Assembly: GCA_028293565.1 (NCBI GenBank)
Contig: JAQGON010000135.1
Span: 1-35,188 of the forward strand
Direction of reading: 5' to 3'
Length of the DNA: 35,188 nucleotides
Source of the DNA: Verrucomicrobiota bacterium
Lineage (GTDB): Bacteria; Verrucomicrobiota; Verrucomicrobiia; Opitutales; Opitutaceae
Position 1 is the stretch's first letter, and each line of letters begins with the position of its first letter. The notes below the pieces were generated by a model. The model was given only the letters and a program-made list of their open reading frames with translations, searched no databases and was not told the origin of the DNA. The translations under genes and the position numbers were made by a program. Shown here one piece after another: positions 8,683-18,567 of the stretch.

Positions 8683-10362
8683 CTAGCTCACGTATTTCTG
8701 GACGATCGGGATCCTGCGGCCGACGCCGAAGGCGAGCGGCGTGATCTTCAGGCCCGGGGCCGCCTGCTTCCGCTTGTACTCGTTCAGGTCCACCTTCCGC
8801 ACGACGTCGTTGACCACCGCCTCGTCGAACCCGCGGGCGACCAGGTCGCGGCGGGACAGGCCTTCCTCCACGTAGCCCTGCAGGATGGCGTCGAGGAGAT
8901 CGTAGGGCGGCAGGCTGTCCTGGTCGGTCTGTCCCGGGCGGAGCTCGGCGCTGGGGGGTTTTTCAATCGTATTGTGCGGGATGATCTCGCGCTCTCGGTT
9001 GATCCAGCGCGCGAGGGCGTAGACCTGGGTCTTGAACACATCCGAGATCACCGCGAGCCCGCCGCACATGTCGCCGTAAAGCGTGCAGTACCCGACCGCG
9101 ACCTCGCTCTTGTTTCCGGTCGTGAGCAGGAGCGACCCGAACTTGTTCGACAGGGCCATCATCAGCACGCCGCGGATGCGCGCCTGGATGTTCTCCTCGG
9201 CCACGTCGCGCGGACGCCCGGCAAAGAGCGGCTGCAGCGCGCGCTCGGTCGCCGCCACCGGCTCGGCGATGGCCACGGTCTCGAACTGGATCCCGAGGTT
9301 GCCGGCGAGAATCCGCGCGTCGTCGCGCGAGTGCTGCGACGAAATCGACGACGGCAGCGAGACGCCGACGATGTTCTCCCGTCCCAGCGCCGCGGCGGCG
9401 ATCACCGCGACCAGCGCCGAGTCGATGCCACCCGACAGGGCGATCAGCGCGCGCCTGAAACCGCTCTTGTGCGCATAATCGCGGAGCCCGAGCACCAGCG
9501 CCTCGAAGGTGTCCTTCATCTCGTCCTGCGCGAACGTGGGATGGATCGCGACAGGCGTCCGCGCCGCCGACGCCGGAATGGGCGGCTCTCCGCGGCTCGG
9601 GACGCCGACCACCCGGATCTCCTCCGCGAAGGCGGCCAGGCCGGCGACGACCGCGCCCGTGGCGTCGCAGACGAGGCTGCGGCCGTCGAAGATGAGTTCG
9701 TCGTTGCCGCCGACCGCATTGACGTAGGCCACCGCGCAGCCGAGCGAACGCGCGGACTCCGCCACGAGTTTCTGGCGCACGTTTTCCTTGTCGTGGTGCC
9801 AGGGGCTCGCCGAAAGGTTCAGCATCAGGTCGCACTTCTGCGCCGCCAGCTGCTCGAGCGGCATCGCCCCGCTATAGAGCCGGCGTGTACTGAGCATCGG
9901 GTTCGTCCAGATGTCCTCGCAGATCGTCACGCCGATTCGCCGTCCCCCGTGCTCGACGACGGTGGGGGAGACCGCCGGTTCGAAATACCGGTCCTCGTCG
10001 AAGACATCGTAGGTCGGAAGCAGGCACTTGCGGGCCATCGCGGCCACCTTTCCCCGCACGCAAAACGCGGCGGAGTTGTGAAAGGGACGCCCGCGTCCGG
10101 TGGCGTTCAGCTCGACTGTCCCGAGGAGGATCGGCACTTCGCCGGTGGCGGCCGCGATCTGCGCCAGCGATTCCGCCACATCCGGCACGAACCGGCGCTT
10201 GAAGAGCAGGTCGCGCGGGGGATAACCGCAGACGGCGAGTTCCGGGAAGACCACGAGTTCGGCGCCCTGCGCCACGAGCGTCTGGTACGCGTCGAGGATC
10301 CGGTGGCGGTTGCCGGCGAGGTCGCCGACGATGGGATTGAGCTGGGCGAGGCCGAGGCGCAT
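8683..10362 (-). CDS. nadE: Glutamine-dependent NAD+ synthetase
   Basis: NadE amidates nicotinic acid adenine dinucleotide to NAD+ using ATP and glutamine. The 559-residue two-domain form has an N-terminal nitrilase-type glutaminase (about 1-260), with catalytic Glu in [15 protein letters not shown], Lys in [12 protein letters not shown] and Cys in GVTICEDIW. The C-terminal synthetase has the ATP pyrophosphatase P-loop [11 protein letters not shown] and the TTGNKSE and YGDMCGG segments. The frame is open to 10500, but that extension runs through the inverted repeat at 10442-10613; the ATG at 10362 starts the glutaminase fold and is preferred. No ribosome site is seen. Confidence 0.95.
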
Positions 10363-10441
10363 GAGGAAAATGGGAGCGCGCAACGTGGACGCGTTTCCAA
10401 GTCCTGACAACACGCAAGGCACGCGACCGATTCCAAGGCAG

Positions 10442-10613
10442 TTGAACAGAAGCCAACCAAGGAAACAAAGCGCCGTCCGTCGCCGGAGTCCGGGTTGCAC
10501 TCTGGAGTTGATCCTGAAGGGGGTTCGGAAACCAAAAAATCATTGGAGGCTGCCTGCAAACCCGGGTGTCTTCGACGGACGGCGCTTTGTTTCCTTGGTT
10601 GGCTTCTGTTCAA
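10442..10613. repeat. Perfect 41-bp inverted repeat with 90-bp spacer
   Basis: Bases 10442-10482 and 10573-10613 are exact reverse complements over 41 bp (start TTGAACAGAAGCCAACCAAG; end AAGCGCCGTCCGTCG). Weaker matching continues inwards, with CCGGGTT-GCA on one side and CCGGGTTTGCA on the other, so the two halves look like diverged copies of a repeat about 60 bp long in opposite orientation. It occupies the 309-bp gap between the divergent genes nadE (start 10362) and maf (start 10672), which otherwise shows no gene. The remaining parts, 10363-10441 and 10614-10671, must hold both promoters; I see no clear boxes. RNA across it would fold into a very stable hairpin. Confidence 0.85.
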
Positions 10614-10671
10614 ACGGATCGGGGTTCGGGGCTTGCGCCGGACGCGGGCGGATCGCTTTGTTGCGGCCTTC

Positions 10672-11253
10672 ATGACTGCCGCCCACCGCCTCATCCTCGC
10701 CTCCGCTTCGCCGCGCCGGCGCGAGCTGCTGGGCGGATTGGGCGTGCCGTTCGACGTCGTCGTGGCCGGCGTGACTGAACACGAGGATCCAGCGACGGAT
10801 CCCGCCGTGATGGTCGCCCACAACGCCGCGTTGAAGGCCGGGTGGGTCGCGGCGCGGCATCCGGAGGCGTTTGTGCTCGGCGCCGACACGACCGTCTTCA
10901 TCGACCGCACCGTCCTGAACAAACCCGCGACTCTCGAGGAGGCGCGGACGATGCTCCGGCAGCTCTCGGGCCGGACCCACACGGTGTTCACGGGGATTGC
11001 TCTGACGTGCCGGCGCCGCGAGGTGAACGTTCAGCGCGGGGTCACGAGCCGGGTGACGTTCAAGGCGTTCGACGACGCGGTGATCGACGCCTATTTCCGG
11101 ATCGTCAATCCCCTCGACAAGGCCGGCGCGTACGGAATCCAGGAGGGTCGCGAGCTGATCATCGCGGGCTGGGAGGGGTCGTTCACAAATATTATGGGGC
11201 TTCCGATGGAAGCGACGAAACAAATTTTGACGGAACAGGGTCTCGTGGCCTGA
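10672..11253 (+). CDS. maf: Maf-family nucleoside triphosphate pyrophosphatase
   Basis: Maf/YhdE proteins hydrolyse dTTP and UTP (or modified pyrimidines) to monophosphates and have been linked to septum formation. The product has 193 residues, the usual length. Diagnostic motifs are the N-terminal LILASASPRRRELL with its phosphate-binding Ser-Arg-Arg cluster, the catalytic GADTTV (about 75-80), the SGRTHTVFTGIAL segment, and DKAGAYGIQE near the end. The frame is open upstream to 10495 through the repeat; ATG 10672 is set by homology. The GADTTV form suggests the dTTPase/UTPase branch. It is 25 bp from the TonB-like gene and may be co-transcribed with it. Confidence 0.92.
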   Translation: MTAAHRLILASASPRRRELLGGLGVPFDVVVAGVTEHEDPATDPAVMVAHNAALKAGWVAARHPEAFVLGADTTVFIDRTVLNKPATLEEARTMLRQLSGRTHTVFTGIALTCRRREVNVQRGVTSRVTFKAFDDAVIDAYFRIVNPLDKAGAYGIQEGRELIIAGWEGSFTNIMGLPMEATKQILTEQGLVA

Positions 11254-17650: not shown

Positions 17651-18319
17651 ATGAAAGAGTCCAAGTTCATCGAACTCCTCAACCTTTACGTCGACCACCA
17701 TATCAGCCCGGCCGACGCCGCCCTGCTGGAAGCCGAAGTCCGCACGAACGGGGCGCGGCGCAACGTCTACCGCCAGTACTGCCAGATGCAGAAGGCCTGT
17801 CACCAGCTCGGCGAAGCCTTCCGCATCGAGTCGCCCGCCGCCGCGACCACCCCGAAGATCATCGATTTCAAGCCGCGCCGCCCCGCCTTGGCCGGGGTCA
17901 CGTATGCCGCGGGAATCATCGCGGTCGCAGCCTGCATCGCAGTCGCGTTCGTCGTGCGTTCCGGAGGCCGGGCGCCGGGCTCGCCGGCGGCTGTCGCCAC
18001 GCATGCGTCCGCGCCGGCTCCGGCCAGTGTCGCCGCATTGACCGCGCCCGCAGTGCGGCCAGCCCTGCAGCCGGCCTTTGGTCCGCGCTCGCTGACCCTC
18101 CGCGGACAGAATGCCGAGCTGGCGGAAAACGCCGCGCCGGAGCAGGTCGCCTTGCGCGACTGGATGGATGACATCCGCCTTTCCTCGATGCAGGGCGTCT
18201 TGATCGAGGACCTGCGCTTCGACGGAAAACCCGCGCTCCCCAGCGACGACCGCGTCTATCGCTCGGTTCGCCCCTTCCAAGGCAAGGTCGAGATGACCGC
18301 GTTCAAGTTCCAGCGGTAA
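17651..18319 (+). CDS. Putative membrane anti-sigma factor
   Basis: The 222-residue protein follows the ECF sigma gene by 37 bp. The N-terminal cytoplasmic part (1-75) begins with a helix, FIELLNLYVDHHISPADAALLEAEV, that resembles the sigma-binding domain of anti-sigma proteins. A zinc-site-like cluster has Cys44 and Cys50 but not the classical H-x3-C-x2-C spacing. A single transmembrane helix covers about 80-102, and an Ala/Pro-rich external region leads to a C-terminal segment with no known motif. A role as anti-sigma factor is inferred from position and topology; direct sequence support is moderate. Release of sigma by proteolysis or partner binding is possible but nothing in the sequence shows it. 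Confidence 0.6.
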   Translation: MKESKFIELLNLYVDHHISPADAALLEAEVRTNGARRNVYRQYCQMQKACHQLGEAFRIESPAAATTPKIIDFKPRRPALAGVTYAAGIIAVAACIAVAFVVRSGGRAPGSPAAVATHASAPAPASVAALTAPAVRPALQPAFGPRSLTLRGQNAELAENAAPEQVALRDWMDDIRLSSMQGVLIEDLRFDGKPALPSDDRVYRSVRPFQGKVEMTAFKFQR

Positions 18320-18391
18320 GCCGCTTTCGTCGCGGCTCAACCGCTCAGTCCAACGTTTTTTCGAGTCGACACGGTTTAGGGTCGGAAGGGA

Positions 18392-18506
18392 TTGGCCGCA
18401 AAAATGCGCAAGGGCTCGGCGGCTCCGAATCGATTCTCCCGTGCGCATATGAGCGCGTTGGCAGTTCCTTCGCCGCCCCGGAGCCCTTGCGCATTTTTGC
18501 GGCCAA
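18392..18506. repeat. 26-bp perfect inverted repeat between convergent genes
   Basis: The arms 18392-18417 (beginning TTGGCCGCAAAAATGCGCAA) and 18481-18506 are perfect reverse complements, with partial pairing continuing inside (GGCGGC against the reverse complement of GCCGCC). The spacer is 63 bp. The core CCGCAAAAATGCGCAAG resembles the units at 5532-5561. It lies in the 248-bp gap between the anti-sigma-like gene and ruvA, both of which end here, so it could serve as a two-way terminator. The rest of the gap shows no gene. Confidence 0.75.
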
Positions 18507-18567
18507 CCCTCCGGTCGAAATTCCCCGCCGAGGATGAGGATTCATCCCAAGGCAATGCCGTGCGCCG

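Follow-up and report, generated by a model that had tools for sequence, protein, structure and literature searches.

A gene-less inverted repeat inserted between nadE and maf in a Verrucomicrobiota genome and its probable link to GxxExxY nuclease genes

The inverted repeat and its site

The window, that is, the whole stretch of 35,188 nucleotides that we analysed from a Verrucomicrobiota bacterium, contains the divergent genes nadE (8683-10362, minus strand), coding for NAD+ synthase (NCBIfam NF010588, 689 bits), and maf (10672-11253, plus strand), coding for a Maf family nucleotide pyrophosphatase (NCBIfam TIGR00172, 152 bits), whose starts at 10362 and 10672 leave a gap of 309 bp (10363-10671). 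Inside this gap the left (5') arm TTGAACAGAAGCCAACCAAGGAAACAAAGCGCCGTCCGTCG (10442-10482, plus strand) is complementary at 41 of 41 bp to a right (3') arm on the minus strand (10573-10613), with a spacer of 90 bp; both the coordinates and the NCBIfam names agree with the original prediction of a perfect 41-bp inverted repeat between divergent nadE and maf genes. The pairing continues imperfectly inwards, as had also been predicted, but for ~14 nt and not ~18, up to 55 nt at 89% (10442-10496 with 10559-10613). Furthermore, the repeat does not fill the promoter region: its gene-less core (10442-10613, plus strand) spans 172 of the 309 bp. The predicted RNA fold of this hairpin reaches -113.2 kcal/mol (z -10.76), and a search of the window with Rfam gave no match at the hairpin, only one tRNA elsewhere. 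The 20-mer given with the original prediction occurs twice in the window against 0.00 times expected from 100 shuffles.

Among 18 inverted repeats of up to 500 bp in the window, the one between nadE and maf is the longest. The second longest (18389-18509, 41-nt arms, 88% complementary) lies between positions 18319 and 18568. Pairs similar to it occur inside the longest hairpin of the same genome (locus L056, 2960-3377), as a nested insertion, and in the nadE-maf insert of the same-genus genome G006, so it is probably another mobile repeat.

We compared the nadE-maf gap across the genus. All 12 genomes hold maf, and the gap was readable in 10 relatives, the contig of G005 ending there. The distance from the nadE start to a maf motif was 123-131 bp in G001, G004, G010 and G011, 192-664 bp in G002, G003, G006, G007, G008 and G009, and 336 bp in the window; four relatives have no insert, six have other sequence, and none has the window element. 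Since a nadE-side block (10363-10419, minus strand) common to the same-genus relatives and a maf-side block (10628-10671, plus strand) common to most of them are both kept in the window, ~207 bp must have come in between them (10421-10627, an approximate span drawn against the four insert-less gaps, with ends uncertain by some bases). Judged from this comparison, the nadE-maf hairpin is an insertion. The retention of both blocks on either side of the insert also speaks against the claim that the repeat must affect both promoters, and the explanation that we favour would need no role for it in the expression of nadE or maf.

The insert-less site is a small palindrome, CGCAAG-GCTGG-GCTTGCG. The insert of G006 has 36-nt arms (92%) of a different type, ...GGCGAATGGACGCGAATAAACGCGAAT, and that of G008 a 12-nt inverted pair. 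The same search setting revealed no arms in G002, G003, G007 and G009, whose inserts we therefore regard as other inserts and not as proven hairpins. Those of G009 and G002 (L194 and L196) contain ...CTCCTCGCAATGACA / ...CTCCTCGTGGTGACA, presumably akin to a repeat known from many bacteria.

Two further gaps, whose gene names hold by NCBIfam, were followed in the same way. Between argG and argF a member of the window's family stands in the window's own genome. In G002, G003 and G006 its place is taken by an insert in which GAAT-type arms enclose a GxxExxY gene (with an internal stop in G006), and in G004, G008 and G010 by other sequence; the gap is shorter in G001 and G007 and nearly absent from G005, G009 and G011. 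Between lspA and yicC there is a copy in the own genome, and other sequence or a short gap in the relatives. Taken together, the three comparisons indicate that the same gaps hold different inserts in different species.

Copies of the repeat and the history of its arms

The original prediction called for a search for further copies in the genome, and these were found. In the own genome (4.16 Mb in 239 contigs) we found 128 matches to the 172-bp element, many being arms that match on both strands; the full-length matches are ~70-78% identical to it (40 of 69 candidates were scored in this search). The arm pattern TTGAACAGAAGnnAACnAAGGnAACnAAG, with up to 3 mismatches, occurs at 52 + 59 = 111 sites and its reversed control at 0 + 0. 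The genome holds at least 50 hairpins, 47 with arms paired by script and three copies in which the arm pattern was missed. The nadE-maf hairpin is thus a member of a multi-copy inverted-repeat family.

By a rough gene caller, which marked 91% of the sequence as coding and chose starts poorly, 44 of the 50 hairpins lie outside called genes and 6 inside; 25 are in tandem gaps, 8 in convergent gaps, 5 in divergent gaps (the window's included) and 6 at contig ends. Identical arms between divergent genes would fit a single duplication event or an invertible promoter switch. Both are barely credible, however, given at least 50 hairpins of which only 5 of 50 stand between divergent genes, and given that the element is absent at this spot from the ten readable relatives, which leaves the suggested inversion of the spacer without support.

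Another reading is that the hairpin is kept for its structure in RNA or DNA, as a terminator, an mRNA stabiliser or a binding site. The very stable fold is in line with this, as are the distances to a neighbouring stop codon, of which 28 of 44 are -15 to +34 nt. On the other hand, covariation over 34 of the 50 copies amounts to +0.19 kcal/mol, with arm pairs that are mostly invariant or changed on one side, no T-run follows the stem, and neither the relatives at this spot nor Rfam offers a counterpart, so that we hold selection for structure to be highly improbable. As an intrinsic terminator or a structured RNA the hairpin fails for want of a U-run after the stem and of pairing kept by covariation.

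The arms are periodic. Over 94 arms of the own genome, variation is greatest at positions 12, 13 and 22 (majority base 0.40-0.45), and conservation at positions 12-29 is described best, among periods of 3-12, by a period of 9 nt (adjusted R2 0.54). A reading of the 9-nt unit as codons was rejected by inspection, because the freest base would fall at the second codon position. In locus L149 (3523-3559) the arm motif stands five times at 9-nt steps, which suggests that arms may lengthen one whole unit at a time. With the loose pattern VRCNAAG x3 we counted 203 hits in the own genome, about twice the number of window-type arms, and with its control 0; sibling repeat families are therefore likely there.

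The perfection of the window's arms is uncommon in the family. Among 41 own copies of 155-190 bp only 4 have perfect outer 29-nt arms, and arms agree at 0.858 within a copy and 0.823 between copies. In the copy that matches best (L021), the 3' arm has 39 of 41 positions in common with the window's arms and the 5' arm 32 of 41, and the two arms of L021 are alike at 33 of 41. Template switching at a hairpin can rewrite one arm from the other. The 41 of 41 identity in the window is best explained, as the simplest reading of these matches, by a recent rewriting of the 5' arm from the 3' arm, i.e., by a later arm-to-arm correction. The original prediction had derived the identical arms from a recent duplication or inversion, or from gene conversion: the matches of L021 favour conversion, and the at least 50 hairpins do not agree with a one-off duplication.

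The family also extends beyond this genome. In a search of 38 genomes, the own one included, 6 had a match to the element; G006, of the same genus, had 58, a count in which arms enter on both strands, and each of the ten remaining genus members 0 to 2. In the phylum sample 26 of 288 genomes contain the arm pattern when up to 2 mismatches are allowed, the control giving 0 among the matches listed, and an exact scan of the named genomes gave at least 108 stretches with arms. The matches listed carry the labels Verrucomicrobia, Planctomycetes, Lentisphaerae, Kiritimatiellae and their subgroups, with one contig labelled Nitrospiraceae and two named only 'bacterium'. In a Planctomicrobium assembly (L074, 1-660) four window-type hairpins follow one another in tandem at a spacing of 163 bp and adjoin a GxxExxY gene.

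Like the REP and BIME repeats served by RAYT proteins, the window's family consists of intergenic palindromes in many copies, and such repeats occur in this phylum, with REPs reported in Opitutus terrae (PMC3733652, as far as its accessible text goes). A Y1 transposase, either RAYT or IS200/IS605-like, could have moved the family as it does REPs, and Y1_Tnp is found in 9 of the 12 genus genomes, both arm-rich ones included. Nevertheless, 7 of the 10 arm-poor genus genomes have Y1 as well, and the hits in the own genome are weak (29 and 21.8 bits). Moreover, the arms exceed the 20-40 bp stated for REPs, and they lack the tags of the GTAG and CGTC families described in that source, with no GTAG at the arm ends and no Y1 transposase tied to their copy number. 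Movement by a Y1 enzyme is therefore very unlikely, and we rejected Y1/RAYT as the driver, since its occurrence, in 9 of 12 genus genomes, does not follow arm copy number.

GxxExxY genes and the repeats around them

Because the argG-argF inserts of three relatives carry a GxxExxY gene, we followed up this link. ORFs beside window-type arms at three Planctomycetota loci belong to the same family (TIGR04256, E 8e-37 to 5e-38, with PF13366). We looked for the best ungapped inverted repeat, of any arm type and with a score of at least 14, between the 400 bases before and the 400 bases after each GxxExxY gene. In the genus set 24 of 30 loci were enclosed, against 4 of 112 shifted windows and 16 of 140 cross-paired flanks, and in the phylum-sample set 22 of 29, against 5 of 110 and 8 of 300. 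The loci tested were 30 of the 47 matches in the genus and 29 of the 109 in the phylum sample, mostly in draft assemblies, whose contigs are prone to end at repeats. With both sets joined, 46 of 59 were enclosed against 9 of 222 shifted windows, and 13 of 59 had no spanning repeat. Fisher's test on the shifted counts, with loci and windows treated as independent, gave 1e-17 for the genus and 4e-15 for the phylum sample.

The arms around GxxExxY genes vary widely in sequence, e.g., CCACGAATGGACACGAATGAACACGAAT and CCACAGATTTCACGGATTAC. They have a period in common, with self-matches at lags 8, 9 and 10 (z 10.7, 7.6 and 6.0) and also at lag 2 (5.5), and the best lag is 8-10 in 40 of the 46 enclosed loci. 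GxxExxY is present in 26 of 59 sampled genomes of the phylum, many of which have several copies of the gene. The window-type arm pattern occurs in 6 of the 26 genomes with GxxExxY and in 0 of the 33 without it. VRCNAAG x3 occurs in 18 of 26 and 7 of 33, respectively; this pattern is loose, some hits resembling lysine-rich coding sequence, and serves here as a co-occurrence count only. In G040 the reversed control of VRCNAAG x3 gave 141 hits and the pattern 6, owing to an unrelated abundant repeat.

We aligned GxxExxY proteins from 60 of 66 loci. The G-x-x-E-x-x-Y residues are kept in 59-60 of the 60 and those of Q-x-x-x-Y in 52 and 59; a D and an E-x-K are kept too, although their counts are biased because the gene search pattern required them. 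We take the Q-x-x-x-Y to recall nucleases of the RecB/Cas4 type. A search of solved structures gave no relatives of the protein at E of 1 or less. In the literature searched, which largely left out subscription journals, we found no stated role for GxxExxY proteins beyond an incidental mention in partly accessible text, and no tie of GxxExxY, TIGR04256 or PF13366 to periodic inverted repeats, although a description may exist elsewhere. Searches with the arm sequences returned, by title, nothing on bacterial repeats, and those for repeats of these phyla led mostly to studies of REPs and to papers on other subjects.

In a quick tree of 58 proteins the arm labels, which were given by hand before the tree was built and in which unlabelled and odd arms formed separate groups, needed 22 changes where shuffled labels needed 40.0 on average, and 0 of 200 shuffles were as low. 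Taken singly, five of seven named arm types were clustered (0 to 4 of 500 shuffles as low), and the GAAT and GAAA groups were not (69 and 500 of 500). The tree leaves out L252 and L210, the same genes as L027 and L261, respectively; L027 was labelled from a neighbouring hairpin, and L063 is truncated at the locus end, its far arm being known only from the arm-pattern search of the phylum sample.

Five proteins stand by window-type arms, from Schlesneria, Planctomicrobium, a Planctomycetaceae bacterium, G014 and the own genome (contig C159). They need one change (0 of 500 shuffles, branch support 79) in the 58-protein tree. In a tree enlarged to 71 rows by further proteins of the genus, drawn from a set in which no ORF was found in L308 or L309 (L308 reads open in another search), the smallest clade with all five holds exactly those five (SH-aLRT 93), and the next row is a protein of G007 (L246) that adjoins a degenerate window-type arm (22.6 bits). 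As this clade spans a phylum border, host descent does not explain the match of the arms.

Among 67 pairs of window-type arms less than 700 bp apart in the named loci, two are more than 400 bp apart, one in L122 (whose assembly bears the name Chthoniobacter flavus) and one in L165. Each pair surrounds an intact GxxExxY gene, whose product has 61% (L122) or 57% (L165) identity to the C159 protein; the gene of L122 reads open. The survey covered pairs below 700 bp; L153 has wider pairs, and the motif pattern found no GxxExxY there.

A gene-less copy and its possible driver

The assembly of L165 also contains a 169-bp hairpin (L119). Inside it lies sequence that matches the final part of the L165 gene and what follows that gene (RMMLPGVD against RMMLPGAN). 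The local DNA score is 27.1, against a mean of 10.0 and a maximum of 16.7 in 300 shuffles; by tblastn alone the remnant has an E of 0.46. This interior is what an internal deletion of a gene-bearing element would leave. The same search for a GxxExxY remnant in the hairpin cores of the own genome gave a best E of 0.045, which is not convincing, and the descent of the window copy is therefore traced through its arms.

The GxxExxY gene on C159 is a TIGR04256 member (127.6 bits). A complete hairpin precedes it, but only a weak arm follows (7.5 bits, a score reached by 5 of 1015 arm-free windows), and in the 400-base enclosure test the gene had no spanning repeat (L252). In the own genome the only gene with which the window copy could have ends in common is this one, next to a hairpin and with a weak second arm. 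The arms of another own GxxExxY gene (C73) were considered as the source of a hairpin family and rejected, because a single further partial site (C186) does not make a family.

We consider it probable that the nadE-maf hairpin is a gene-less, non-autonomous, MITE-like copy of a GxxExxY-linked inverted-repeat element, a grouping proposed here, to which the window's arms belong as the type found around one GxxExxY lineage. Fuller members would carry one small GxxExxY gene, coding for a predicted PD-(D/E)XK nuclease, between their arms. The nuclease would recognise the periodic arms, either folded or as duplex, the element would have been moved or copied into intergenic sites with gene-less copies served in trans, and the intact C159 gene of matching lineage would be the driver in the own genome. 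As in MITEs, the copies are short, lack coding capacity, are numerous, and end in inverted repeats that they have in common with gene-bearing relatives of putative autonomy elsewhere (L165 and L122). They differ from MITEs in that the ends are made of 9-nt units and the partner gene codes for a nuclease and not for a known transposase. They differ, too, in that no target duplication was found: direct repeats measured 3.39 at 46 gene-bearing loci against 3.38 in cross-paired controls, and 3.87 at 39 own hairpins, whose ends are uncertain by some bases, against 3.85.

Alternatively, the GxxExxY genes may be passengers or homing-type invaders in hairpins spread by another enzyme (a DDE or HUH transposase) or by replication slippage. 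There are indeed far more hairpins than genes (50 and 3-4, respectively, in the own genome), the 83%-complete assembly of arm-rich G006 yielded no GxxExxY gene whose lineage matches, target duplications were not found, and the gene of L074 has a hairpin on either side instead of one arm pair around it. A passenger, however, need not match its arms, whereas here the type of arm goes with the lineage of the protein across phyla and inverted repeats enclose 46 of the 59 genes tested, and for this reason we regard a passenger role as unlikely.

PD-(D/E)XK enzymes are known in mobile DNA, as TnsA of Tn7 and as some homing endonucleases; TnsA acts with a DDE partner, and homing enzymes reside in introns or inteins. 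GxxExxY proteins resemble them in superfamily and in their mobile setting, and differ in that one small gene stands alone between periodic arms. The genes enclosed by related repeats are members of the GxxExxY family (TIGR04256; PF13366, PDDEXK_3), for which the family library gives a name only, whereas the window copy has no gene. To judge from their sequences, the repeat family and its GxxExxY-bearing relatives look like an undescribed family of mobile DNA.

More tentatively, and with somewhat less confidence than doubt, we propose that GxxExxY proteins are the putative enzymes of an undescribed class of mobile elements, in which a lone nuclease gene lies between arms of about three 8-10-nt units and each lineage has its own arm dialect. 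Such elements would be present in at least Verrucomicrobiota and Planctomycetota, with gene-less hairpins far commoner than gene-bearing ones, and would move with neither a classical transposase nor target duplication, perhaps through cutting of the folded hairpin.

The repeat alone is of modest interest, which lies instead in the tie of an orphan nuclease to hairpins with periodic arms and in a matching candidate enzyme in the same genome. Should GxxExxY proteins be what moves or maintains the repeats, this orphan family of nucleases and a large class of bacterial hairpins so far without explanation would explain each other. The origin of long intergenic palindromes, and of the differing ones found in the same gaps across species, would then be accounted for. 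Finally, as arm type predicts nuclease lineage, the arms may offer ready pairs of enzyme and site, one of them in the window's own genome.
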